A DNA stretch of 49,039 nucleotides from a virus. The notes under the pieces were generated by a model. The model ran no database searches. It saw only the letters and a program-made list of their open reading frames with translations, and was not told where the DNA came from. The stretch's first letter is position 1, and each line of letters starts with the position of its first letter. The position numbers were made by a program, and so were the translations under genes. The DNA is taken from positions 1 to 49,039 of the IMG/VR virus record IMGVR_UViG_3300043429_001224; one strand, given 5' to 3'. Shown here in pieces: positions 3,220 through 49,039 of the stretch.

Positions 3220-3339
3220 ATGAAATATTGCCAAATAGATCCTAATAATTCCAGCATTGATGAAATAAAAGCTGAAATATCAAGATTAACCAATTTAATG
3301 AATCTTAAAAAAAATGAGGAGCAGGCGGTAAAGATCTAA
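3220..3339 (+). pseudogene. Truncated second copy of the 5' end of the polymerase fragment gene
   Basis: A 39-codon reading frame (MKYCQIDP to EEQAVKI, then TAA) that matches the first 39 residues of the polymerase gene at 4506 at 27 positions, including the run LMNLKKNEEQ. It ends exactly where the real gene enters motif B (the NSCYG segment). Many differences are synonymous, so it is not a fresh duplication; it looks like a diverged copy brought in or left behind by the homing endonuclease next to it. The last 35 nt are also the antisense end of that endonuclease gene. Whether the 39-residue peptide is made is unknown. Confidence 0.75.
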
Positions 3340-4378
3340 CACACAATTCATCAATTGATTCTATAATAATAGGTTCATTGGCATTTCTACTATTAAAAAT
3401 AAATATATGAAATGTTAATGGGCCTTTTTTTAAATTGTCATATACAAAATTGAGTTTTTCTTTATGCAAATTAAAAGTATATTTGGATTTTACTTCAATT
3501 ACTAAGTTTTTTGATGCAATATAAATATCAGGATAATACCTATGAATTTTATTACCTGATGTATATGTTAAAGGACCTGTGTATTTTTCAATTTGGGCGC
3601 GCCCTATTATGATATCCGATTCTTTATAATATTTAAGTAAATAATTAATAGCAAGATCTTCATATCCTTGTACTTTAATTGTAGTCCCAGACGGTAAAAT
3701 AAAATCTTTATATGAATATATTGGTTTAAGCAAATCTCCATATTTATCCATTTTAGTATCAATCATTTTTTTTACAGTCAACGGATTATGTAAAGGATTT
3801 GTATATCCTGTAAGTTTTTTGTGTGTTTCAGTACATTTATTTAAAATTTTTTCCGATTGGAATGGATAGTAATATCCATGTTTTTCAAATGTTTTATTTT
3901 TTGTGTATTCTGAATTAACTACCCACTCACTGCCATATTTTAATAAATTGGTTTTTTTAATTTTTGATACACGCATTTCTTTATTTTCTTTACTCATATT
4001 TTCGTGCATATATTTTGCTGAACATTTAGTTGAACAGAATAAACGTTCTTTTTTTCTTGGCTTGAATTCATATTCATTATTGCAATTTAAACATTTTTTA
4101 ACTTCTTTGATGTTTGGTTTTTCATAGTTTATCCATTTTTGTTTTAACCCACATGGTTTACAAAATTTTAAATAACCGTTTGCAAAGCCACGAAAAGAAA
4201 CGCTTGAACCACAATTACATTTAGGTCGTTCTGTTAATTCATAATATTGAAAATAAGCAAATTCTTGAAATGAATGGTAGTTTATAATTTCGGTTTTAAT
4301 TAAATCTTTATATTTTTGCTGAAATCCTTTTAGCGTGCCGAATTCTTTTAAGTGATTTGTAATAAGTTCTTTAAACAT
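3305..4378 (-). CDS. PD-(D/E)XK-type homing endonuclease in the polymerase locus
   Basis: The only reverse-strand gene in the window. I chose the ATG at 4378 (MFKELITNH, 357 residues); a TTG at 4426 would add 16 residues. It has an N-terminal region with two Cys clusters (CNCG with CKPC; CLNC with FCSTKC) that look like zinc-binding modules. A middle part holds repeated K-x-G/NP-type DNA-binding segments (KYGSEW, KHGYYYPF, GYTNPLHNPL, DKYGDL). The C-terminal nuclease core has YYPDIYI followed by LVIEVKS, a PD-(D/E)XK signature. Such enzymes cut intron- or HEG-less alleles and spread their own gene. It lies between a broken copy of the polymerase 5' end and the intact fragment, so polymerase is its probable target. 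Confidence 0.8.
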   Translation of the reverse strand: MFKELITNHLKEFGTLKGFQQKYKDLIKTEIINYHSFQEFAYFQYYELTERPKCNCGSSVSFRGFANGYLKFCKPCGLKQKWINYEKPNIKEVKKCLNCNNEYEFKPRKKERLFCSTKCSAKYMHENMSKENKEMRVSKIKKTNLLKYGSEWVVNSEYTKNKTFEKHGYYYPFQSEKILNKCTETHKKLTGYTNPLHNPLTVKKMIDTKMDKYGDLLKPIYSYKDFILPSGTTIKVQGYEDLAINYLLKYYKESDIIIGRAQIEKYTGPLTYTSGNKIHRYYPDIYIASKNLVIEVKSKYTFNLHKEKLNFVYDNLKKGPLTFHIFIFNSRNANEPIIIESIDELCVRSLPPAPHFF

Positions 4379-4505
4379 TTCTATGATATTATTTTTGTTT
4401 ATATATAAAAAACATAAAACACACAAATGAAAAAAACATTAATTTGGTGATATTTTTAAAAAAAACTATTTAATAAATAATGAATATAAATTTAAACAAT
4501 TTTTA

Positions 4506-5684
4506 ATGAAATACTGTAAAATTGATCCTTCTTCTGCAACTAGAGAAGAAATTTTATCGGAAATAGAAAGGTTAACATATTTAATGAATCTTAAAAAAAA
4601 TGAGGAACAATCTGTAAAAATCTTTATTAATAGTTGTTATGGAGCATTAGCATCAACTTATTTTGTTGGTTATAACGTAAAAGTAGCTGAAGCTATTACT
4701 TTACAAGGACAAGAAATGATTAAATTTACAAGCAGAATTATTAATCGTTATTTTTTAGAATTTTGGCATAAAGATAAAAAGCTTCATGAATTACTAGGAT
4801 TAAACACAGTAAACCCGGTAAAAGATGAGGTTGCTGTTTATGGAGACACGGATTCTTGTTATATAACTTTACAAGAAATTGTCAATGGCTGTGATTGGAA
4901 AGAAGATACAAGAAAACTAATTATGATGATTTATGAAAATCGTCTTAAAGAATATCTTGAGAAAAATTTTGAATCTATGGCTAAAAAATCAGGCACAGAA
5001 AATATTCAAGATTTGGAAATGGAAACCCTTTCATATTCAGGAATCTTTTTAAAGAAAAAGAAATATGTATTAGATCTTGCTTGGAAAGGTGGTGCAAATG
5101 GCGGAATTTTTTATAATTCACAACAAAAAATTAAAGCAACAGGCGTGGAGATTGCTCAATCTTCAACACCAGCATTTGCAAGAAAAAAGTTAAAAGAATT
5201 GCTTGAAGTTATCCTAAGAGAACGTAAATCATTAAATTTACGCAAATTTACAGAAATTCTTAAACGGGAAAAAGAAACATTTATGTTGGATAACATTGAA
5301 AATATTTCTATGTCTTCAAGCATAGGAGATTATGAAAAAGGAATTGCTGATGATAGAAAAAAATTAGTAATTAATGACCATTGTCCAATGCACGTTCGTG
5401 CTTCAGGATATCATAATTTTTTAATCAATAATAGTAAATGGAAAAATAAGTATCAATTAATTAAAAGCGGCGACAAGGTTAGATTCTATTATGCAAAAAA
5501 TAATGATGGCGGGGAAAACGTATTTGGATATTTGCCTGGTAATTATCCTGTAGAAATTGCACCACCGGTTGATTATGATGCGCAATTTGCACGATGTATT
5601 ATTGATCCTATTAATCGCTTTATAGTTGCAATGGGTTTACCTGCGCTTTCACCGGAATTAATTGTCAGAACACAATTGTTTTAA
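4506..5684 (+). CDS. 43: DNA polymerase family B, C-terminal fragment (gp43-like, split)
   Basis: 392 residues holding only the second half of a B-family replicative polymerase. Motif B is at residues 38-46 (KIFINSCYG) and motif C at 112-117 (YGDTDS). These are followed by the LKKKKYVLD lysine-rich palm motif, KATGVE and a thumb region. The 3'-5' exonuclease, the N-terminal domain and motif A (the DxxSLYP aspartate) are absent here and from the rest of the window. The protein must therefore pair with a separately encoded N-terminal fragment, as in Aeromonas T4-like phages with gp43A/gp43B genes. No intein remnant is seen at its N-terminus, so association would be non-covalent. The next gene starts in its stop codon (TAATG). 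Confidence 0.9.
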   Translation: MKYCKIDPSSATREEILSEIERLTYLMNLKKNEEQSVKIFINSCYGALASTYFVGYNVKVAEAITLQGQEMIKFTSRIINRYFLEFWHKDKKLHELLGLNTVNPVKDEVAVYGDTDSCYITLQEIVNGCDWKEDTRKLIMMIYENRLKEYLEKNFESMAKKSGTENIQDLEMETLSYSGIFLKKKKYVLDLAWKGGANGGIFYNSQQKIKATGVEIAQSSTPAFARKKLKELLEVILRERKSLNLRKFTEILKREKETFMLDNIENISMSSSIGDYEKGIADDRKKLVINDHCPMHVRASGYHNFLINNSKWKNKYQLIKSGDKVRFYYAKNNDGGENVFGYLPGNYPVEIAPPVDYDAQFARCIIDPINRFIVAMGLPALSPELIVRTQLF

Positions 5685-5949: not shown

Positions 5950-6234
5950 ATGGCTAAATCATTTTCTTTTTCTGAATTAGATTCAGCGCTGTCAAAAATT
6001 AATCCTAAAGGATCGATCATCACTCACAACACTTTTTCTAAAATTGATGAATATATTCCTACGGGCAATTTTATGTTAAATGCGCAATTAACTGGCTCTC
6101 TCTTTGGAGGCATCCCAAACTCAAGATCAATATGTTTTGCGGGTGAATCAGGATGTTTGCCAAAAAATGAAAAGGTTAAAGTATATATACTGAAAACCCG
6201 CACATTTGATGAAAGGTACACAATCGAAGAGTAA
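5950..6234 (+). CDS. uvsX: UvsX/RecA-like recombinase, N-terminal fragment with short N-intein
   Basis: Residues 1-68 are the start of a T4 UvsX-type recombinase, running to the first half of its Walker A motif (FAGESG). Residue 69 is the catalytic Cys1 of an intein (CLPKNEKVKVYI, block A), and the protein stops after only 26 intein residues. The other half of the P-loop (TGKT) is in the gene at 7359, directly after a C-intein ending in SHN. Trans-splicing would therefore rebuild GESG-TGKT. On its own this 94-residue piece cannot bind ATP. An N-intein this short is the atypical type split between intein blocks A and B, as in AceL-TerL. Confidence 0.9.
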   Translation: MAKSFSFSELDSALSKINPKGSIITHNTFSKIDEYIPTGNFMLNAQLTGSLFGGIPNSRSICFAGESGCLPKNEKVKVYILKTRTFDERYTIEE

Positions 6235-7348
6235 AAATCCGTTGAGCATTTTTAAAAACAAGCTGTCTTACGATGATTATATCAAGTATGTAAGACAGCT
6301 TGTTTCAAATTTTAATTATGATGCAGACACAAACGAATTTGAGAAAATGTATCAACGTTATCTTGATAATTATGTTCAGATCGAAAAAAAACAGGCAAGC
6401 AGAATTTGTTTATCAATGATTGGTTTTTTTTCTGCAACCCAATTAAATATTAATTATTGGATAGACAGAGGATGGAGTAAAGCTCAAGCAATTGAAAAAA
6501 TTAAGAAAAGACAATCAACCTGTACGCCTGAGATTGCTGCAAAAATACAAGCAACGCTTTCCAAAAAAACAAAAGAAGAAAAAGCAGAAATAAACAAAAG
6601 AAAAGGTAATGGTTTAAATGCAGATTGGCTTGTAAAAAATCAGGGTCTAACGCAAGAAGAGGCTAAACAAAAAATTTTTAATAGATGTTCACGCGCAGGT
6701 AAAATAAAAAATACTTTGTATAAAAAACTTGGGAAAGCTGTTTCTGATAGACAGTTAAGTTTTTATTTGGAACGCGGTTTAACACTTGAAGATGCAAAAA
6801 ATGCATTAAAAGAAAGACAAACTACAACATCTCTTCAAGCATATGTAAAAAAATACGGTTATGACGAAGGTATAAAAAGATATGAAAAAAGAATAGACTT
6901 ATTTAAAAAGAATTGGGCAAATAAACCAGATGATGAAAAATTAGAAATAATTTGTAAAAGAATAAAAAGAAACAAATTTTTTTCAACTGAATCATATATT
7001 TTCTTTAAAGAAATAGAAAAAAATTACTTTATAAATCTTAATTGTTTATACGGAAAAAATGAATATTTTTTATATGATAACGTAAATAAAAAGATTTATT
7101 TTTATGACTTTGTCATTCCTGAAAAAAAGATAATTATTGAATATCACGGAAGTTTTTGGCACGCTGATTCTAACAAGTCAAAAGAAAATTGGAAAAATCC
7201 TATTTATACTTATGAAGAATCATTGCAAAAAGATAAAGAAAAAAAACGTATTGCAGAAGAAGCTGGATTTTTATATTTTGTAGTTTGGGATTATCAAAGA
7301 AATAATCAAGAAACTATCAAAAACTTATTGAATATAAATTTAAAATAA
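6209..7348 (+). CDS. Vsr-like (EDxHD/PD-(D/E)XK fold) homing endonuclease
   Basis: About 379 residues; ATG at 6209, with a TTG one codon earlier as alternative. It overlaps the end of the N-intein gene out of frame. The N-terminal two thirds is helical and contains repeated segments of the type W/Y-x-x-x-R-G-x-(S/T)-x-x-x-A (WIDRGWSKAQA, YLERGLTLEDA), probably DNA-binding. The C-terminal ~100 residues are the nuclease: YFYDF, KIIIEYHGSFWHAD, PIYTYEES and a closing FVVWDY, the pattern of Vsr-like homing enzymes found in fractured phage genes. It would cut intein-free uvsX alleles and drive spread of cassette 1. A 16-bp hairpin lies in its early codons. Confidence 0.85.
   Translation: MKGTQSKSKNPLSIFKNKLSYDDYIKYVRQLVSNFNYDADTNEFEKMYQRYLDNYVQIEKKQASRICLSMIGFFSATQLNINYWIDRGWSKAQAIEKIKKRQSTCTPEIAAKIQATLSKKTKEEKAEINKRKGNGLNADWLVKNQGLTQEEAKQKIFNRCSRAGKIKNTLYKKLGKAVSDRQLSFYLERGLTLEDAKNALKERQTTTSLQAYVKKYGYDEGIKRYEKRIDLFKKNWANKPDDEKLEIICKRIKRNKFFSTESYIFFKEIEKNYFINLNCLYGKNEYFLYDNVNKKIYFYDFVIPEKKIIIEYHGSFWHADSNKSKENWKNPIYTYEESLQKDKEKKRIAEEAGFLYFVVWDYQRNNQETIKNLLNINLK
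6256..6305 (+). promoter_or_regulatory. Perfect 16-bp inverted repeat after the uvsX N-fragment
   Basis: The arms (6256-6271 and 6290-6305, AAACAAGCTGTCTTAC and its complement) surround an 18-nt loop. It starts 22 nt after the stop of the UvsX N-fragment and inside the early codons of the endonuclease. A perfect stem of this length within coding sequence is unlikely by chance. It could act as an attenuator between the N-intein gene and the endonuclease, or hinder endonuclease translation. Confidence 0.7.
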
Positions 7349-7358
7349 AATACACTAT

Positions 7359-8564
7359 ATGCAAAATCTTGAAACAGAAAAAGCAATTTATGACCCTGAA
7401 ATTTTACGCGAAGAATTAAAATTTTGTTATCCTAAAGAAAATTTTGATCATTTATCGGATAATGAAATTATACAGAGATTTAATTTACATGCTGAAGAAA
7501 ATTCAATAGAAATTACAGCTGGAGAATTAGTATCTTTAAAAGATTCGGCAATTTTTATTGATACACCAGACGGTTATCAACCTATTGGAAACTTTTATAT
7601 TAAGAAACCAAGAAAAATATACAAATTAGAATTAGAAAATAATTATGTATGCGAATCTTCACAAGATCATCTTTATGAAACATTAAATGGCTGGAAAAAA
7701 GCAGAAGATTTAACAACAAAGGATTCTGTTTTAACTAAAGATGGCTTTTATAATGTAAAAAAATGTTCTGCAACAAGAACAGAAGAAGTATATGACTGGG
7801 AGGTGCTTCATGAAAATCATAGGTATTGGGCCGGCGACGGTATATCTTCACATAACACAGGAAAAACATTCTTAACCTTGAATGCTTGCCGTGAAGCCCA
7901 AAAAATGGGATATCATATTATATACTGTGACTCAGAAGCTGCGGTTGATGAAACTACTATGCGTAACTTTGGAATAGACCCTGAAGGAGTTCGGTATCAA
8001 CCTGTAAGTACATCACTTGAAGTACGACATTTTGTTTCTAATCTTTGTGACCAACTTAAAAAAGCAAAAGATAAAGGAGCAGAATTACCTAAAATTTTAT
8101 TGGTTCTTGATTCTTTAGGAAATCTTGCAACAACCAAAGAAAAAGCAGATGCAGCATCAGGAAGTGAAAAAAAGGATATGACAAAACAACAAGATCTAAG
8201 ATCACTTTTCCGTGTGATTACTACAGATCTTGCAGAATTTAAAATCCCGTTTATATTCACAAATCACACATATGCTTGTGCCTTAGGCGATACAGAAATT
8301 ATGATGGGTAATGGCGAAATTAAACAACTTAATGAAATTAAAATAGGTGATACCGTTATGACTGTTTACGGCGGTAAAGAGGTGTTAAACACTTTTAAAT
8401 ATGATAAAACAAGAACAGTTAAATTATTTTTTGAAGACAATATTGAAATTGAGTGTTCTCCTTTACATAAATTTCTTGTGGATGAAGATCCGAATAAAGA
8501 GACTTCCTGGAAAACTGCAGATGAATTAAATGAAGGTGATTTTATTTTGCAGCAAACTCAATAA
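7359..8564 (+). CDS. uvsX: UvsX middle fragment flanked by C-intein 1 and N-intein 2
   Basis: Three parts in one 401-residue protein. Residues 1-166 are the C-intein of cassette 1 (DTPDGYQPIGN, block B ESSQDHLY, block F/G ending GISSHN). Residues 167-306 are the RecA core: TGKT completing the P-loop, CDSEAAVD, and LLVLDSLGN as Walker B, ending FTNHTYA. Residues 307-401 are the N-intein of a second, different intein: Cys1 in CALGDTEI, IKIGDTVMTV, and block B with ECSPLHKFLV. Both ends must splice, to the protein from 5950 and to the protein from 9628, for UvsX (about 68+140+209 = 417 residues; T4 UvsX has 391) to form. It starts 10 nt after the endonuclease stop. Confidence 0.9.
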   Translation: MQNLETEKAIYDPEILREELKFCYPKENFDHLSDNEIIQRFNLHAEENSIEITAGELVSLKDSAIFIDTPDGYQPIGNFYIKKPRKIYKLELENNYVCESSQDHLYETLNGWKKAEDLTTKDSVLTKDGFYNVKKCSATRTEEVYDWEVLHENHRYWAGDGISSHNTGKTFLTLNACREAQKMGYHIIYCDSEAAVDETTMRNFGIDPEGVRYQPVSTSLEVRHFVSNLCDQLKKAKDKGAELPKILLVLDSLGNLATTKEKADAASGSEKKDMTKQQDLRSLFRVITTDLAEFKIPFIFTNHTYACALGDTEIMMGNGEIKQLNEIKIGDTVMTVYGGKEVLNTFKYDKTRTVKLFFEDNIEIECSPLHKFLVDEDPNKETSWKTADELNEGDFILQQTQ

Positions 8565-8583
8565 AGAAACTAAATGTATGATT

Positions 8584-8631
8584 TGTGAAGTTTCATGGAG
8601 ATATATAAATAAAAACTTATGAAACTTCACA
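8584..8631 (+). promoter_or_regulatory. Hairpin sequestering the start codon of the HNH endonuclease
   Basis: A perfect 13-bp inverted repeat: TGTGAAGTTTCAT at 8584-8596 pairs with 8619-8631. The 3' arm begins exactly at the ATG of the endonuclease gene. The 22-nt loop holds TATAAATA at 8604-8611. A read-through transcript would fold the start codon into the stem, while a transcript starting in the loop would lack the 5' arm. T4 homing genes are known to use this logic. Confidence 0.8.
8604..8611 (+). promoter_or_regulatory. T4-late-type promoter box TATAAATA
   Basis: An exact TATAAATA, the T4 late consensus read by gp55, within ATATATAAATAAAA. The same extended ATATATAAATA context occurs at 17719 and 45848. 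By T4 spacing, transcription would start near 8617, leaving an almost leaderless message for the ATG at 8619; this short leader is a caveat. Confidence 0.6.
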
Positions 8632-9656
8632 TTACAGAAAATAATTGGAAAATTGTATTAGAAAAAAACAAAAATACTTCTAATTTAGGAAATGTTAAAA
8701 AAGAATTATATAAAAGAAAAGATTTACATAATCTAATAATAGAAAATACATCTTTTTGTAATTCTGACACCGATATTAAAATTAGGATAACGTATATTCT
8801 TAATGAATTAACAGAAATGAATATATGTAAAGAATGTAATACTCTGATAAATGACGGCGGGAAAAAAATGTTTTGTAGTCATTCTTGTCGAGCATTTAAT
8901 CAAGCTAAAGATTTAGAAATAAAAAGAAAACGATCTGAATCTTATTCAAATACTTATTCAATGCTTAGCGAGACGGAAAAAAATGAAATTAAAACGAAGC
9001 GAAAAAATACCTTACAAGAAAAATACGGCGTAAATCATAATTTTAAAATAGAAGGATTTAAAGAGTCTAGAGCAAAAACTTGGAAAATAAAGTACGGAAA
9101 TGAAATAGCACAAAAAAGTGACATTGTTAAGGAAAAAGCAAAAAATACATGTAAAGAAAAATACGGTGGTCCAAATCCGCTGTCAGACAAAAATGTTAAA
9201 GAAAAATGGTTATCATCATTTAATCAAAAATATAACACAAGTAATCCTATGCATGTAGACATTTTTAAAAGAAAAATGTTGGCATCCAAACTTGGTATAG
9301 ACATTGAAGATGTTAAATTTATATCTGAAAAACTCATAAATCAAGAAATATTAACTCTTAATGAATATATAAAATTAGTTAGAATATTAACAGAAGAAAC
9401 TTTAATCAACCATGGAAACGCAAAATTTGGCAATAATTGGGAAATAAAAAGAGGAAAAATGATGTATCACATAGATCATAGCTTGTCAATCAGATCTTGT
9501 TTTGAGATGTGTATAGACCCTTTAATAGCTTCCCATATTGCAAATCTTGAATTTATTCCATTCGTGGAAAATTTATCAAAAGGCGCAACTAATTCCATAA
9601 CATATGAAGAATTACAATTAAAAATAAATGAATATGAAAAAACTAAAACTTCTTAA
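8619..9656 (+). CDS. HNH homing endonuclease inside uvsX intein 2
   Basis: 345 residues. In order: a helical N-terminus, a Cys4 zinc-finger-like module (CKECN, then FCSHSC, about residues 70-90), and several repeats of the K-x-KYG and GxxNPLS type. The C-terminal HNH (His-Me finger) core has YHIDHSLSI, then ANLEFIP, then ENLSKG. The zinc module and K-YG/NPL repeats resemble those in the reverse-strand endonuclease at 3305-4378, although that one has a different nuclease core. It should cut intein-2-free uvsX alleles. The gene starts in its own hairpin/late-promoter unit and ends overlapping the start of the UvsX C-fragment by 29 nt. Confidence 0.88.
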   Translation: MKLHITENNWKIVLEKNKNTSNLGNVKKELYKRKDLHNLIIENTSFCNSDTDIKIRITYILNELTEMNICKECNTLINDGGKKMFCSHSCRAFNQAKDLEIKRKRSESYSNTYSMLSETEKNEIKTKRKNTLQEKYGVNHNFKIEGFKESRAKTWKIKYGNEIAQKSDIVKEKAKNTCKEKYGGPNPLSDKNVKEKWLSSFNQKYNTSNPMHVDIFKRKMLASKLGIDIEDVKFISEKLINQEILTLNEYIKLVRILTEETLINHGNAKFGNNWEIKRGKMMYHIDHSLSIRSCFEMCIDPLIASHIANLEFIPFVENLSKGATNSITYEELQLKINEYEKTKTS

Positions 9657-10377
9657 AAAAGAACAAGGCAACTTGAACACAGTATATGATATTGAAGTTG
9701 CAGATGAGCACCATTATATTTCTAAAGAAGGTGTCATTATGCATAATTCAATCGGTTCTTTTATTCCAGGACAAACAATTTCAGGTGGCGGCGGAGCTAT
9801 ATACAATGCATCAATCATAGTTCAATTATCAAAAGCTGGCCTTAAAGAAGGAGCAGTTGGTTCTAACGGTTTTGCCATGAAAACTGGAATTATCGTAACT
9901 TCAAAACCAGCTAAAAATAGATTTGCTCGTCCTTTACCTATTAAATTCCATATTTCCTTTTATAAAGGAATGAATCCTTATGTTGGATTAGAAGAATACA
10001 TAAATTGGGAAAATTGCGGGATTCAAAAAGGTAAACTAATTACACAAAAAGAATTTGAAAAAACGTATGCAAAAGGACATGAGAAAAAAGATATAATTGA
10101 GTCAACAAGATTCGTCAAAACTAACGAAGACGGAACAGAAACAGTTTTTTATTTTGAAGATAAGCCAACGGCACGTACCATTGCAGTCAGACATTTGTGC
10201 GAAGAAATTAAACCACAGGATTTATTTACTTCAAGAGTTATTACTAAAGAAGTATTAGAAGAGCTTGACGAAAAAATTATCAAAAAAATGTTTATGCTTC
10301 CAAATATTGGCGACGTTAATCAAATTGAAGACGACGAAATTATTGGAGATATTTTTGAAGATGAAAATGAAGATTAA
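9628..10377 (+). CDS. uvsX: UvsX C-terminal fragment preceded by C-intein 2
   Basis: Residues 1-40 are the C-intein: YDIEVADEHHYI (block F) and GVIMHN (block G), with Ser41 as the splice acceptor. Residues 41-249 are the end of UvsX: SIGSFIPGQTISGGGG corresponds to the DNA-binding loop region, followed by KTGIIVTSKPAKNRF and an acidic C-terminus (GDIFEDENED), as expected for UvsX-type proteins that contact gp32 and UvsY-like partners. The start used is ATG 9628; ATG 9634 is equally possible. It overlaps the endonuclease upstream and the small gene downstream. Confidence 0.9.
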   Translation: MNMKKLKLLKKEQGNLNTVYDIEVADEHHYISKEGVIMHNSIGSFIPGQTISGGGGAIYNASIIVQLSKAGLKEGAVGSNGFAMKTGIIVTSKPAKNRFARPLPIKFHISFYKGMNPYVGLEEYINWENCGIQKGKLITQKEFEKTYAKGHEKKDIIESTRFVKTNEDGTETVFYFEDKPTARTIAVRHLCEEIKPQDLFTSRVITKEVLEELDEKIIKKMFMLPNIGDVNQIEDDEIIGDIFEDENED

Positions 10378-13569: not shown

Positions 13570-13788
13570 ATGAAAATTAAAAGCATTTCCTGGAAAAATT
13601 TTGGTAGTTATGGAAATAATGCACAGCAAATAGTATTTGATGAAAACCAAGGAAATTTTTATATAGTTTTAGGAAGTAATGGAGCAGGTAAATGTTTAGA
13701 TAAAGAAACTAATATAGAAATTTTCTTTGATGATAAAGATAAAGAAGAAAGGTTTAAAAAATTTCTTAAAAATAGAGAACCCGTTTAA
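13570..13788 (+). CDS. 46: gp46 (SbcC/Rad50-like) N-terminal fragment with short N-intein
   Basis: Residues 1-41 are the beginning of the gp46 ATPase: KISISWKNFGSYG-like N-terminus and Walker A up to the lysine (GSNGAGK). Residue 42 is Cys1 of an intein (CLDKETNIEIFF), which ends after 31 residues at a TAA. The serine that should follow the lysine (GAGKST) is found in the gene at 14126, directly after a C-intein ending SHN. The fragment is therefore only a P-loop stub needing trans-splicing. As in uvsX cassette 1, the split is between blocks A and B. Confidence 0.9.
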   Translation: MKIKSISWKNFGSYGNNAQQIVFDENQGNFYIVLGSNGAGKCLDKETNIEIFFDDKDKEERFKKFLKNREPV

Positions 13789-14491
13789 TTGTTAAACAGC
13801 GGAATTTCTGATGATGAAATTTTTTTTGGATATAATGACAAGAGAGAATGGTATATTTGGGCAGAATTAAAAAATAAAATATTTTTTTACGATTTTTGTA
13901 TTAGGTCTAAAAAAATTATAATAGAATTTCAAGGTTCTAAATTTCATTTTAATAAAGAAAAACATAACGATTCTTGGCGATCACTTTATTCCAATCAAAC
14001 TCCTGAAGAATCTATGTTATATGATAATAGTAAAAAAATATTAGCCGAACAAAATGGTTTTATTTTATTATATGTTTGGGATACTGACGATGTTGATGAA
14101 TTTTTAAACAATTTAAAAAATATTTATGAATTGCACGCTAAAAGATTTATACGATTTTATTCATTTTGAAAATGAAAAAATAGAAGGTATTAAAGTTAAA
14201 ACTCGATATGGGAAACGTGATATTAAAGCTATTGATATAACAGCAAGAAATTCTGAAGTTCATTGTGTTAAATTAGTTTCTGGAAAATTTATTAAAACTT
14301 CACCTGATCATTTACTTTGGAAAAATGAATGGGTTAAAGTAAAACATTTAAAAATAGGAGATTATATAGAAACAGAGCATGGATTAGAAGAAATAGTTGC
14401 AAACGATATATTAAATTACAAAGATGATTTGTATGACATAGAAGTTGATACTGTTCATGAATTTTTTGCAAATAATATTGTATCACACAAT
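13693..14491 (+). mobile_element. Split-intein cassette 3 in gp46 (N-intein, endonuclease remnant, C-intein)
   Basis: Inserted immediately after the Walker A lysine of gp46. It comprises a 31-codon N-intein (13693-13785), a 126-codon Vsr-like endonuclease frame abutting it, and a 122-codon C-intein (14126-14491) with block B (KTSPDHLLW), blocks F/G (YDIEVDTVHEFF, then IVSHN) and Ser as +1. At 799 nt it is less than half as long as cassette 1, and its endonuclease lacks most of the N-terminal region, suggesting decay. Confidence 0.9.
13789..14169 (+). CDS. Shortened Vsr-like homing endonuclease (probably degenerate)
   Basis: The frame starts with TTG directly after the N-intein stop (TAA-TTG) and gives 126 residues. 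It matches the C-terminal nuclease domain of the enzyme at 6209: FFYDF, KKIIIEFQGSKFHF, TPEESMLYD, and LLYVWDTDD at the end. It lacks the ~270-residue helical DNA-binding part. The EYHG of the other enzyme is EFQG here, and HAD is HFN, so residues likely to serve in catalysis have changed. I read it as a homing endonuclease that has lost its targeting domain and perhaps activity. It may be translated by coupling, since its end overlaps the next gene by 44 nt. Confidence 0.7.
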   Translation: MLNSGISDDEIFFGYNDKREWYIWAELKNKIFFYDFCIRSKKIIIEFQGSKFHFNKEKHNDSWRSLYSNQTPEESMLYDNSKKILAEQNGFILLYVWDTDDVDEFLNNLKNIYELHAKRFIRFYSF

Positions 14492-16045
14492 TCTACTCTT
14501 TCGGATGTTATTAAATTTGGATTGTACGGAAAAGTTGATGGCAAAAAATTAAAAGAATTACCTAATAGGTTTAATAATGCTTTATATGTTAAAATAGAAG
14601 TAGAAAAAAATTCAAGTACACATGTTGTTATAGAAAGAGGAATTGCACCAAGTATTTTTAAGGTTTATGTTAATGGTATTGAATATGACCAAGCAGGAAA
14701 AAAGAATGTTCAAGATTTTTTAGAAGACGAAATTTTAGGGGTTCCGTACTATGTATTTAATAATATGGTATCTTTGTCCATTAATGATTTTAAGAGTTTT
14801 ATCAGTATGGGTGTACACGATAAACGAATGATTATAGACAGGTTGTTTGGATTAGAGGTTTTAGGAAGTATTAAATGGAAAGTTAAGTATCAAATCAAAA
14901 CAATGAAAGAACAAATAGATTTGATAGACACAGAAATTTCGGTGATAGAACGCAATATAACGGCATCAGTAAATGAACTTGAATTATTAAATCAAAAAAT
15001 TAAAGAAGCAAGCGAAGAAAAGAAAACTATCCTATTAGAGAAAATACAAAAACTAAATGAGTTTATAAAGAATGCCGATGAAAATTTAAAACAAATAAAA
15101 GAAAAGAATAACGATGTAGAAGCAACTTTAAAAGAATGGGAAAATATCATAAATGGTCATAAAACGGAAATTCACATATGTACTGAAAAAATAAGATTAT
15201 ATGAAAATGGTAAATGTCCCACTTGCGAGTCGGATTTAACAACCGAGCATCACAAATTTTTATTGCATGAATATATCAAAAGAGATGAAAGTTCTAGAAA
15301 AATTATAGAGGAAACTCGAGAAAAAATAAAAGAATTATCTGAACGCAAAGAAAAAATTAAATCTGCGTATTCAGAATTAAATAATAAAAAAATAAATGCA
15401 TCATCCCAATTATATTCTTATACCAATGAAATTAATTTATTAAAAGAAAATCATGCAGTTGATGAACAAACGCAATCATTAAAGAATATAATTAATGACA
15501 ATTCAAATAAAAAAAATGAAGCAATACAAAGAAAAACTGTTGATGAAAAAAAGGCAAATTTTTACAAAATTATAGAAGACATCTTTGGAGACAAAGGAGT
15601 AAAAGTATCAGCATTAAAAAGAATTTTACCTGTATTAAATGTTGAGATCAAAAAAGTATTAAATGATTTAAACATGGACTATAGAGTAAGTTTTAATGAA
15701 GAATTTGACGTTGATATTCAACATCTAGGATTTAAAGTTTCAGCGGAACAATTAAGCACAGGTGAACGCAAAAAAGTTGATTTTGCGGTTTTAATTGCTT
15801 TAATACGACTAATGAAAACTAAATTTGCAGGTTTAAACTTAATTTATTTAGATGAAATATTTTCTTCAATAGACTCAGATGGGATATATCACATTTTAAA
15901 AGTTTTACATAAAACATGCAGAGAATTAAATTTAAACATATTTGTAATTAATCACTCACAATTACCTACGGAAATATTTGATTATAAGGTGGATATTATT
16001 AAAAATAACGGTTTTTCCAACTTAAACATAGAAAAGATTGGATGA
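14126..16045 (+). CDS. 46: gp46 C-terminal fragment preceded by C-intein
   Basis: Residues 1-122 are the C-intein (KVKTRYGKRDIKAID, block B KTSPDHLLW, IGDYIETEHG, ending SHN). Ser123 onward is gp46: STLSDVIKFGLYG completes Walker A. Long coiled coils flank a zinc hook (CPTC, about residue 363). The ABC signature LSTGERKK is near residue 543 and Walker B LNLIYLDEIFSSID near 571. The spliced product would have 41+517 = 558 residues, almost the same as T4 gp46 (560). It forms the DNA-end-processing complex with gp47 encoded just upstream. Confidence 0.92.
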   Translation: MNCTLKDLYDFIHFENEKIEGIKVKTRYGKRDIKAIDITARNSEVHCVKLVSGKFIKTSPDHLLWKNEWVKVKHLKIGDYIETEHGLEEIVANDILNYKDDLYDIEVDTVHEFFANNIVSHNSTLSDVIKFGLYGKVDGKKLKELPNRFNNALYVKIEVEKNSSTHVVIERGIAPSIFKVYVNGIEYDQAGKKNVQDFLEDEILGVPYYVFNNMVSLSINDFKSFISMGVHDKRMIIDRLFGLEVLGSIKWKVKYQIKTMKEQIDLIDTEISVIERNITASVNELELLNQKIKEASEEKKTILLEKIQKLNEFIKNADENLKQIKEKNNDVEATLKEWENIINGHKTEIHICTEKIRLYENGKCPTCESDLTTEHHKFLLHEYIKRDESSRKIIEETREKIKELSERKEKIKSAYSELNNKKINASSQLYSYTNEINLLKENHAVDEQTQSLKNIINDNSNKKNEAIQRKTVDEKKANFYKIIEDIFGDKGVKVSALKRILPVLNVEIKKVLNDLNMDYRVSFNEEFDVDIQHLGFKVSAEQLSTGERKKVDFAVLIALIRLMKTKFAGLNLIYLDEIFSSIDSDGIYHILKVLHKTCRELNLNIFVINHSQLPTEIFDYKVDIIKNNGFSNLNIEKIG

Positions 16046-46080: not shown

Positions 46081-49039
46081 GTGGCTACGCAAACTAATTT
46101 GATAACATCATTCGTTAGAAGAATAAGTAAATATTTTCTTTCTGACACAGCTACATGGTACAGACCACGTAGCATTGAACCCGGATTGAATCATATTGAT
46201 GATCCGCTGTCTTTTGACGAAAAGACAATTTATAAAGGAGAAGAAATAATTGACCTAAGTAAAGGTAAATTATTCACACAAGATGGCTCAGAAATAATTG
46301 AATTAAATTCCAATAATTCCATTCTTTCAGGACTTGCTGTTAAAGAGCCGAGTACAGGCATTTCGGGTGGATCTTTATGGATATCTGTTGATTCAGGTGC
46401 AGCAAGAATTGACGGAAGAACTTATTGGCACACTCAATCATCTGCAAGTGGAGATATTCAAATTGCTCCCAACACTAGTTTAATAAATGGAAGGATTGAT
46501 ATTATTACAATATCAGGAAATTACCCTGTGCCAGCCACTGGAGTTACTGGAATGCCTTCTAATGCAACAGAATATGCAGCACAAATAAATTATCATCAAG
46601 GAAATGAAGCTCCTCCAGGGCGCCCTATTTCATTTATAGGAAACGTTACAGGAGGTTCAAATATTATAACTTTTGCAGGAGGAACAGGATCAGTGTACGG
46701 AATAAATCCTGGTGATATTATAGTAGGAAACGGTATTGCATCACAGGCAACCGTAATGTCTGTTTCTGCTTCAGGTATACAAATCAATACAACTTTTGCA
46801 TCATCAGCAACTGATGTATCATTTGCCATTTCTGTAAATTCATTGGGTTTAAATGTTGGTTTATATGCAACTAGTTCAACAGGATCAAACGTTTTAACAA
46901 GAATAGGTGGAGGTGTTGTTAACTCAGGCGATTTAATATATGGATATGGATTTGATTTTGGTACTAAAGTTACAAACGTATCAGGAAACACTATAACCCT
47001 TTCTAATAGTTCAACTGTAGGTGGTAATAATATATTTGGTATAGGTGATGCGGCTGATGAAGCAATTTATAATCAAATTGCAATTCCTTCTAATGAATTA
47101 GTATTAGCGGCTGTTTTTGTTCCAGCAAATTATACTGGCTCAAGTGCTGCAAATAATTTAAGACCTTTTAGTGTAAGTCAAATATGGAAAACATTTGGAA
47201 TAATGTCTCAAAATGTTTCAGACATTTTAGAAACATTACGACAAAGCGTTTCTTATTATTTATCAGACGCTTCTTATGTATCTGACCAAATAATTATAGA
47301 TCGTTTTTCACATAAGATTTATCAGGTAGTTAGAAACCATTATAGTACATCGTTAACCGCGTCGGTTTTAAACGGTGATATGATTCCTATATCAGGTGGT
47401 AATACTGGAAGCGGTGGATCAAGTAGTTCATCAGGTTCAAGCGGCACTTCAGGTACAAGTGGTACAGACGGCACAAGTGGAACTTCAGGTATAGATGGTA
47501 CATCAGGCACTTCAGGTACAAGTGGTACAGACGGCACAAGTGGAACTTCAGGTATAGACGGCACAAGTGGAACTTCAGGTATAGATGGTACATCAGGCAC
47601 TTCAGGTACAAGTGGTACAGACGGCACAAGTGGTATAGATGGCACATCAGGCACAAGTGGTATAGATGGCACATCAGGCACAAGTGGTATAGATGGCACA
47701 TCAGGCACAAGTGGTATAGATGGCACATCAGGCACAAGTGGAACTTCGGGTGTAGACGGTACATCAGGCACAAGTGGTATAGATGGCACATCAGGCACAA
47801 GTGGTATAGATGGCACATCAGGCACAAGTGGTATAGATGGCACATCAGGCACAAGTGGTTCAAGTGGCACAAGTGGCACATCAGGCATAGATGGTACATC
47901 AGGCACAAGTGGAACTTCAGGTGTAGATGGCACAAGTGGCACAAGTGGCACATCAGGCATAGACGGCACAAGTGGTTCAAGCGGTTCAAGTGGCACAAGT
48001 GGCACATCAGGCACATCAGGCATAGACGGCACAAGTGGAACTTCAGGTGTAGATGGCACAAGTGGTACAAGTGGCACATCAGGCATAGACGGCACAAGTG
48101 GAACTTCAGGTGTAGATGGCACAAGTGGCACAAGTGGAACTTCAGGTGTAGATGGCACAAGTGGCACAAGTGGCACATCAGGCATAGACGGCACAAGTGG
48201 TTCAAGCGGTTCAAGTGGTACAAGTGGCACATCAGGCACATCAGGCATAGACGGCACAAGTGGCACATCAGGCATAGACGGCACAAGTGGTTCAAGTGGC
48301 ACAAGTGGTTCATCAGGCACAAGCGGAACTTCTGGCACAAGCGGAGCCAGAGGTACAAGTGGTTCATCAGGAACTTCAGGCATAGACGGTACAAGTGGTT
48401 CAAGTGGTTCAAGTGGATCAAGTGGCACAAGTGGTTCAAGCGGCACATCAGGATCAAGTGGCACAAGTGGTTCAAGCGGCACATCAGGATCAAGTGGCAC
48501 ATCAGGCATAGATGGCACAAGTGGAACTTCAGGCATAGACGGCACAAGTGGTTCAAGCGGGTTATCAGGAATAAATGGCACATCAGGTACATCAGGCATA
48601 GACGGCACAAGTGGTTCAAGCGGCACATCAGGATCAAGTGGCACAAGTGGCTCAAGTGGCACATCAGGATCAAGTGGCACATCAGGATCAAGTGGCACAA
48701 GTGGCTCAAGCGGATCTTCGGGTTCAAGCGGCACAAGTGGCTCAAGCGGATCTTCGGGTTCAAGTGGCTCAAGCGGATCTTCGGGTTCAAGCGGCACAAG
48801 TGGCACAAGTGGCTCAAGCGGATCTTCGGGTTCAAGCGGCACAAGTGGCACAAGTGGCTCAAGCGGATCTTCGGGTTCAAGCGGCACAAGTGGCACAAGC
48901 GGATCTTCGGGTTCAAGCGGCACAAGCGGATCTTCAGGTTCAAGTGGTTCAAGTGGCACAAGTGGCTCAAGCGGATCTTCGGGTTCAAGCGGCACAAGTG
49001 GATCTTCAGGTTCAAGTGGTTCAAGTGGCACAAGTGGTT
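46081..49039 (+). CDS. Giant collagen-like tail fibre protein (3' end beyond window)
   Basis: The frame is open from GTG 46081 to the window end (at least 986 codons). TAG immediately precedes the GTG in frame, fixing the upstream limit. The first ~450 residues form a virion-type head: [10 protein letters not shown], a Gly/Ser/Ile beta region with [17 protein letters not shown], and an amphipathic helix ([16 protein letters not shown]). From about residue 452 the chain is almost pure Gly-X-Y with Ser, Thr, Ile and Asp and no proline. Such triplets form trimeric shafts in phage fibres; the receptor-binding tip should lie downstream. Two long reverse-strand frames across this region are artefacts of the repeat. 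Confidence 0.85.
47434..49039 (+). repeat. Collagen-like Gly-X-Y repeat tract (GTS/GID/GSS)
   Basis: About 535 consecutive Gly-X-Y triplets, more GC-rich than the rest of the window. The proximal half is built of 27-nt GTSGTSGID units (four near-identical copies around 47640-47740), the distal half of GSS/GTS units such as GGCTCAAGCGGATCTTCG. The order of units is irregular, consistent with unequal recombination. There are no spacers of CRISPR type. Confidence 0.95.

Follow-up and report, generated by a model that had tools for sequence, protein, structure and literature searches.

How could a virus make one UvsX recombinase from a uvsX gene that is laid out as three separate reading frames, each carrying halves of inteins? 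The question arises at positions 5950-10377 of a 49,039-base stretch of DNA from a virus (IMG/VR record IMGVR_UViG_3300043429_001224, positions 1 to 49,039; hereafter the window), where three frames encode consecutive pieces of UvsX of 68, 140 and 209 amino acids together with intein halves. We consider it very probable that the locus consists of split-intein cassettes stacked in one gene, and that UvsX would be made from it by tandem protein trans-splicing.

Three reading frames encode consecutive pieces of UvsX

All features of the locus lie on the plus strand. The first frame (5950-6231) is formed by E1, the N-terminal UvsX piece of 68 amino acids, which ends in FAGESG (5950-6153; positions 19-84 of the UvsX profile phrog_97, E = 2.9e-8), and by N1, the 26-amino-acid N-terminal part of intein 1, which opens with Cys1 (6154-6231, stop codon at 6232-6234). 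The second (7359-8561) starts with C1, the 166-amino-acid C-terminal part of intein 1, ending in SSHN (7359-7856), continues through E2, the middle UvsX piece of 140 amino acids that runs from TGKT to NHTYA (7857-8276; phrog_97 positions 83-224, E = 7.4e-25), and closes with N2, the 95-amino-acid N-terminal part of intein 2, again opening with Cys1 (8277-8561, stop codon at 8562-8564). The third (9628-10374) joins C2, the 40-amino-acid C-terminal part of intein 2, ending in VIMHN (9628-9747), to E3, the C-terminal UvsX piece of 209 amino acids that begins SIGSF (9748-10374, stop codon at 10375-10377). Between the frames lie two putative homing endonuclease genes, HEG1 (379 amino acids from the ATG at 6209; 6209-7348 including the stop codon) and HEG2 (345 amino acids; 8619-9656).

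E1 and E2 match adjoining parts of phrog_97, and E3, which matches a recombinase phrog weakly (1.6e-4), is 71% identical to the corresponding piece of an intact relative, L002. Because the Pfam RecA family matched the middle piece only (E = 2.2e-6, below its cut-off), the phrog_97 profile was used instead. The identification as UvsX draws on the Walker A RecA core and on the collinearity of the ordered pieces with phage UvsX, as seen in phrog_97, in the relatives and in RecA alignments of L002; in addition, a structure model of the middle protein matches the UvsX structures 9gbg, 7z3m and 3io5.

E1 ends with the start of the Walker A motif, and junction 1 falls inside that motif (GESG/TGKT, the slash marking the junction), so that the whole P-loop is present in no single piece. 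Junction 2 (NHTYA/SIGSF) follows a stretch that aligns, in the RecA alignments of L002, with the RecA residues NQIRM, which we take to lie at the start of DNA-binding loop L2. In L002, then, the two sites align with stretches of the RecA ATP site and of a DNA-binding loop. The sizes and order of the pieces and the residues at the junctions, which an earlier note made from the letters of this DNA had read in the same way, are borne out by the frames, by phrog_97 and by 13 collinear intact loci. The locus is a conserved enzyme gene that is interrupted with a complementary intein part on each side of the break; that is, a fractured gene.

We propose that uvsX was invaded twice by split-intein cassettes, in each of which an endonuclease gene stands between an N-intein and a C-intein. 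Both would have entered in frame where the gene is highly conserved, one in the Walker A P-loop and the other in the stretch aligned with the start of RecA loop L2. Three proteins (E1-N1, C1-E2-N2 and C2-E3) would be translated, N1 would pair with C1 as a VidaL-type intein and N2 with C2 as a canonical one, and the splicing out of both pairs would leave a single UvsX of ~417 amino acids, laid out as in the intact relatives.

Relatives carry the same gene with empty or filled sites

Twenty related loci were found with E2. Thirteen are intact (L002-L005, L008, L010-L016 and L018): E1, E2 and E3 lie end to end with neither gap nor overlap at either junction in 13/13 (L008 begins inside E1); in L002, for example, E1 ends at 6000, E2 occupies 6001-6420 and E3 starts at 6421. 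The DNA across site 1, read in 9 of the 13 and in L006, is uninterrupted, as is that across site 2, read in 8 of the 13. L006, L007 and L017 hold intein 2 only, L009 and L020 hold both inteins, and no insert was seen in the more distant L019 and L021. This comparison with relatives lacking one or both cassettes, which the earlier note had proposed, found the pieces contiguous at the empty sites.

The UvsX and intein pieces of L009 are 53-90% identical to those of the window and stand in the same three-piece order, with HEG2 shortened to its first ~82 residues; C2 is 90% identical in L009 and 84% identical in L006. Both sites of L009, and site 2 of L006 and of L017, retain Cys1, the block B His and the terminal HN. 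What separates the halves of intein 2 differs among these loci: at site 2 of L006 there is a 38-base gap and no endonuclease gene, and in L017 there is a TnpB gene (6421-8276; Cas12f1-like TNB, 1.9e-21), after which a short frame (IIEVKSKY...) resembles a remnant of a DUF7487-type endonuclease. In the surroundings of that gene, Rfam gave nothing at E <= 0.1.

L020 is a second record of the window's phage (238,475 bp) in which the uvsX locus is identical. Over window positions 1-47767 the two records, which may stem from the same sample, agree at 99.95%, with the differences confined to a repeat tract (window ~92-190). The phrog_97 profile matches the longer record twice, both times in pieces of the fractured uvsX. 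An intact second uvsX, which according to the earlier note would make the pieces redundant, was looked for with the phrog_97 profile in this possibly incomplete record and was not found.

Two unlike split inteins and their endonuclease genes

Intein 1 is split atypically early (26 + 166 amino acids). The best PDB sequence match of C1 is VidaL (6vgv; E = 1.4e-15), which is also the best Foldseek match of its predicted model, a model of modest confidence (4.6e-5); in VIA-align VidaL ranks 14th (Z = 8.0), with other inteins higher. The C-part of intein 1 is akin to VidaL in sequence and fold. The first ~17 residues of N1 align with the N-parts of other VidaL-type inteins, and its length of 26 amino acids is within the range of 15-37 given for this type, VidaL itself having an N-part of 16 amino acids and being reported to trans-splice fast (PMC13014065). 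Ahead of its Hint part, C1 begins with an acidic stretch of ~48 amino acids (net charge -7 by count) that is predicted, in models of modest confidence, to form two helices. L009, L153 and L155 share this stretch, as does, in a gapped alignment, the PhoH cassette of LR756500; by alignment, it was not found in the C-part of Pseudomonas phage Paride or in the contiguous intein of Salicola phage SCTP-2.

HEG1, which overlaps the end of N1, matches phrog_22677 (1.1e-9). Its C-terminal stretch is Vsr-like, with a weak match to PF03852 (Vsr; E = 0.0052) that stays below the curated cut-off, and HEG1 may belong to the EDxHD/Vsr-related family. These weak matches, together with homology to genes at the same position in other cassettes, mark HEG1 as a putative endonuclease between the intein halves; it aligns, for instance, with the endonuclease-like gene of the phoH cassette of LR756500 (33% over 393 columns). 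In that sequence (L121; 1599-4861), an intein related to intein 1 (52.9% over 104 amino acids) splits a phoH-like gene, named by eye, at GKAG/TGKT, and the cassette as a whole seems to have passed from one P-loop gene to another with a similar target sequence. A scan with an alignment of the C1 pair (A2) returned the window's phage and L009 only, and a wider alignment (A7) was then used.

Intein 2 is split canonically (95 + 40 amino acids). Canonical split inteins are described as having N-parts of ~100-130 and C-parts of ~35-50 amino acids (PMC13014065), and intein 2 agrees with this class, its N-part being slightly under the quoted range. Pfam Intein_splicing covers N2 at 1.2e-12, above the cut-off (best stretch, residues 333-397 of the middle protein), and residues 14-40 of C2 at 0.0079, below it. 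The best matches of N2 to true inteins in the PDB are to gp41-1 (1.5e-7 and 5.5e-7), and by these matches intein 2 is a Hint domain. Two designed repeat proteins outrank gp41-1 (4.3e-8) and were taken as a repeat artefact, because no single stretch passes. HEG2, the end of which is overlapped by C2, is a clear match to homing endonucleases (PF24308, DUF7487, 2.6e-15; phrog_3339, 4.9e-12), and the endonuclease genes of the two cassettes are unlike each other. A scan with an alignment of N2 (A3) returned 6 loci, of which those other than L117 were examined. A single scan of genome contigs gave two loci.

The earlier note had described the middle protein as carrying a C-intein at its front and an N-intein at its back, as the matches of C1 to VidaL and of N2 to Intein_splicing confirm; it had also held the two split inteins to be different, and they do differ both in split position and in nearest relatives (VidaL for C1, gp41-1 for N2).

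Twice-split uvsX genes recur

A first census was made with the UvsX alignment A1 and covered the best 80 of 109 relatives. Site 1 was filled in 2 of the 80, site 2 in 5, and a third site, farther along uvsX after SGG, in 5, with L102, which ends before sites 2 and 3, counted as empty; C-halves at site 3 were read in L084 and L096 only. A second census was made with the intein-1 alignment A7 and covered the best 80 of 90 IMG/VR loci with a VidaL-type C-intein. Judged by the residues that would follow the splice, L152 is PhoH and the other 79 are UvsX-like, L205 showing five residues only.

In 10 of these 80 loci uvsX is split twice: at sites 1 and 2 in four (L148, L149, L153 and L155, the first two being contigs already counted in the first census, as L072 and L037) and at sites 1 and 3 in six (L190, L199-L201, L202 and L210). 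Two more, L206 and L207, combine a contiguous insert at site 1 with a split one at site 3, and the remaining 68 have a single insert, split in 40 (including L152) and contiguous in 28. These assignments came from pattern rules, with 10 loci read by eye, and second inserts were possibly missed in 6 of the 80 (L164, L184, L205, L215, L216 and L220) that end inside the gene. L177, in which a stop codon stands just before the site-3 intein and the site-1 intein is contiguous, was left out of the twice-split count. L199 and L201 are the same in print, and L200 looks alike; collapsing E2 at 98.5%, with L152, L205, L102, L164 and L215 left out, gave 8 distinct twice-split genes, which qualifies the rarity implied by the earlier note. 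All three pieces are present in L153, L155, L199, L201 and L210 (in L155, E3 was recognized by its leading C-intein and first residues). No E3 was found in L190 and no E1 in L202, the contig ending first in each case. In L153 (3504-5744) uvsX is in three pieces, and both gaps lack an endonuclease gene.

A quick tree of E2 (96 rows, 143 columns), which is weakly resolved, requires 8 changes for the 8 twice-split rows, and its well-supported branches force at least 3 changes for sites 1 and 3 and at least 2 for sites 1 and 2. The window gene (L072) falls together with L030 and L032, both intact (an open fork), and L037 (L009) with L039, which is also intact (starred). L033, where site 2 is empty, and L034, where it is filled, encode the same E2 protein, and one UvsX clade contains empty, one-cassette and two-cassette genes. 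The endonuclease genes are likewise variably present, being cut in L009 and absent from site 2 of L006 and from both sites of L153. This distribution of inserts fits gains and losses by mobile elements, and the endonucleases may home into empty sites.

Proposed trans-splicing and its alternatives

Relative to L009, the ratio of nonsynonymous to synonymous differences per site (pN/pS), which is rough here with pS near saturation, is 0.17, 0.16 and 0.28 for E1, E2 and E3, 0.20, 0.50, 0.40 and 0.09 for N1, C1, N2 and C2, and 0.57 for HEG1; for each of these 8 segments, 0/500 bootstraps reached 1. All four intein halves are under purifying selection by this comparison. Sequence and homology together establish the order of the pieces, the empty sites, the motifs, the kinship with VidaL, the selection, the lack of any other uvsX match in the 238-kb record and the recurrence of the arrangement.

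Several points weigh against tandem trans-splicing, beginning with the roughness of the ratios just given. That it would take place in the infected cell we infer, as we do the absence of cross-reaction between the intein pairs, the latter from their different split sites and low similarity. The structure models, in which the halves were modelled singly, are of modest confidence (mean predicted local distance difference test, pLDDT, 66.5 and 64.1). In 70 of the 80 UvsX loci of the first census all three sites are empty, and function therefore does not require the inserts. Finally, polB of the same phage lies in two genes ~16 kb apart (window 3305-5684; L137 and L138, record G001), no intein halves were seen at the polB break, and the lineage therefore tolerates a broken gene without splicing. 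As for orthogonality, the two pairs coexist on one middle protein and are therefore likely orthogonal; charge as its sole basis was rejected, C1 and N2 both being acidic.

One alternative is compatible with tandem trans-splicing: splicing might serve as a switch, such that UvsX becomes active only after both inteins are released, for example on single-stranded DNA. We regard this as unlikely. In its favor, the RadA intein of P. horikoshii sits in the P-loop and its splicing is reported to be sped up by single-stranded DNA (PMC5790916), which makes a similar regulation of UvsX splicing worth asking about; the stretches that hold the two uvsX sites align with the ATP site and with the DNA-binding loop; and L153 remains split at two sites without endonucleases. 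However, VidaL itself is reported to be fast-splicing (PMC13014065), and the 70 loci with empty sites indicate that the UvsX clade needs no such switch.

More speculatively, and as a tentative suggestion, the double split of UvsX might be a stable design that recurs in nature: a two-input assembly that releases the recombinase used in homing only once two trans-splicing reactions are complete. The elements would then occupy the very enzyme by which they spread and might set its timing, and the acidic extension at the front of C1 would be an additional domain for capturing the very short, basic N1. Homing in phage T4 is reported to depend on host RecA or phage UvsX (PMC2988022), so that elements in uvsX occupy a gene that can help them to spread; they would be linked to the machinery of their own propagation. 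Because host RecA may be used in T4 homing, the earlier note overstates the case in asserting that no RecA-type recombinase would be active without both splicing reactions.

It is improbable that the pieces instead assemble non-covalently and that the intein halves are decaying relics. The broken polB without intein halves is a parallel in the same phage, and the split nrdA of phage Aeh1, reported to encode a fully functional enzyme (PMC2988022), may assemble non-covalently. However, the intein halves of uvsX retain their catalytic residues and evolve under purifying selection, the P-loop is interrupted at junction 1, and split inteins persist without an endonuclease gene at both sites of L153 and at site 2 of L006. 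Although short overlapping frames such as N1/HEG1 and HEG2/C2 can mimic frameshifts, an artefact of assembly or frameshifting, or a decaying pseudogene, is scarcely credible, given that the locus is identical in the second record, that L009 has the same three-piece order, that further three-piece cases exist in L153, L155, L199 and L210, and that purifying selection speaks against a pseudogene.

Relation to known systems

The fractured genes of Dassa et al. (2009) resemble this locus in comprising phage genes for enzymes of DNA metabolism with split inteins and an endonuclease between the halves, and are reported to have one break per gene, whereas uvsX here is broken twice, by unlike inteins with unlike endonuclease genes. 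The twice-split uvsX extends this known kind by a double break made by two unlike inteins. Intein 1 resembles VidaL (PDB 6vgv) in its homologous C-part, its short N-part and its split near the N-terminal end, and differs in the length of N1 (26 amino acids, against the 16 reported for VidaL).

Eleven Pseudomonas phage records match C1, including PA5oct, MIJ3 and Paride, and those of Paride and PA5oct were opened. In Paride, a cultured Pseudomonas phage (Wroclawvirus), site 1 holds a 17-amino-acid N-intein, an endonuclease-like gene of 477 amino acids, for which neither Pfam nor the phrogs gave a match at the limits used, and then the C-intein; unlike the window gene, there is one break, and the remainder of UvsX is uninterrupted. 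The annotation of PA5oct gives the genes in the same order, and the record notes gp274 as detected by ESI-MS/MS. For MIJ3, the phage's paper reports a split intein in PolB, and the terms 'RecA', 'UvsX' and 'recombinase' were not found in its main text.

SCTP-2 also has two inteins in UvsX (gene 204), one of them at site 1, where it matches VidaL at 7.1e-45; both inteins are contiguous, however, and the second is at site 3 (SGG/) rather than site 2. A search of the phages collection with the middle protein of L199 at no less than 80% coverage returned SCTP-2 as its only record and no cultured twice-split uvsX. Yersinia phage TG1 and Pseudomonas phage PspYZU05 have, by annotation, a two-piece uvsX with an endonuclease gene between the pieces, and differ from the window gene in having a single break; in TG1 the intein halves were read, and the break is at the GGG loop (site 3).

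The closest parallel to three pieces is engineered: one protein has been made from three segments with two split inteins as a laboratory construct (PMC12707363), and the uvsX described here would be a natural version of the tandem trans-splicing that chemists have built. Two inteins in one protein are known from DnaB of M. smegmatis (PMC6195587). Among the open-licence literature we found no paper that treats a split intein and UvsX together and, among the papers listed, by titles and the starts of abstracts, none on natural genes split doubly or triply; a natural gene split twice by inteins may already have been described elsewhere. The loci collected here supply coexisting intein pairs as well as a large set of VidaL-type inteins, and the relatives, which have no cassette, one or both, with or without endonuclease genes, show stages in the life of a mobile element that targets the recombinase used by homing in the T4 system.

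Other broken genes in this phage and its relatives

The gp46/SbcC gene of the window (13570-16045, plus strand) is also broken in its Walker A motif by a split intein (GAGK/ST). Its N-terminal piece, which ends in GAGK and is followed by a short N-intein, lies at 13570-13785 (phrog_77, 9.2e-8); its C-terminal piece, led by a C-intein (IVSHN/ST), lies at 14126-16045 (phrog_77, 7.7e-64, from residue 123); and the endonuclease-like gene between the halves (13789-14169) aligns with HEG1 (41% over 97 columns). The C-intein was not assigned to the VidaL family, its PDB matches being weak (best, 0.0037).

Just before the C-terminal half of polB there is a minus-strand DUF7487 endonuclease-like gene. 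Read by eye, an nrdA-like gene of record G001 (L127; 54570-58240) is interrupted by another split intein, the halves of which enclose a gene. In the same record, a contiguous mini-intein stands before TDGQQ in a 600-amino-acid frame, perhaps a nucleotidyltransferase (L128; 75252-77051). In the relatives, gp41-like helicase genes, again read by eye, are broken at the P-loop by split inteins with short N-parts in L006 (7759-11359) and L017 (9452-11642), and one in L096 (5795-7447) carries a contiguous VidaL-like intein. Toward the end of the window (46081-49038), a long frame of GTSG repeats, perhaps encoding a tail-fibre-like protein, runs off the window.

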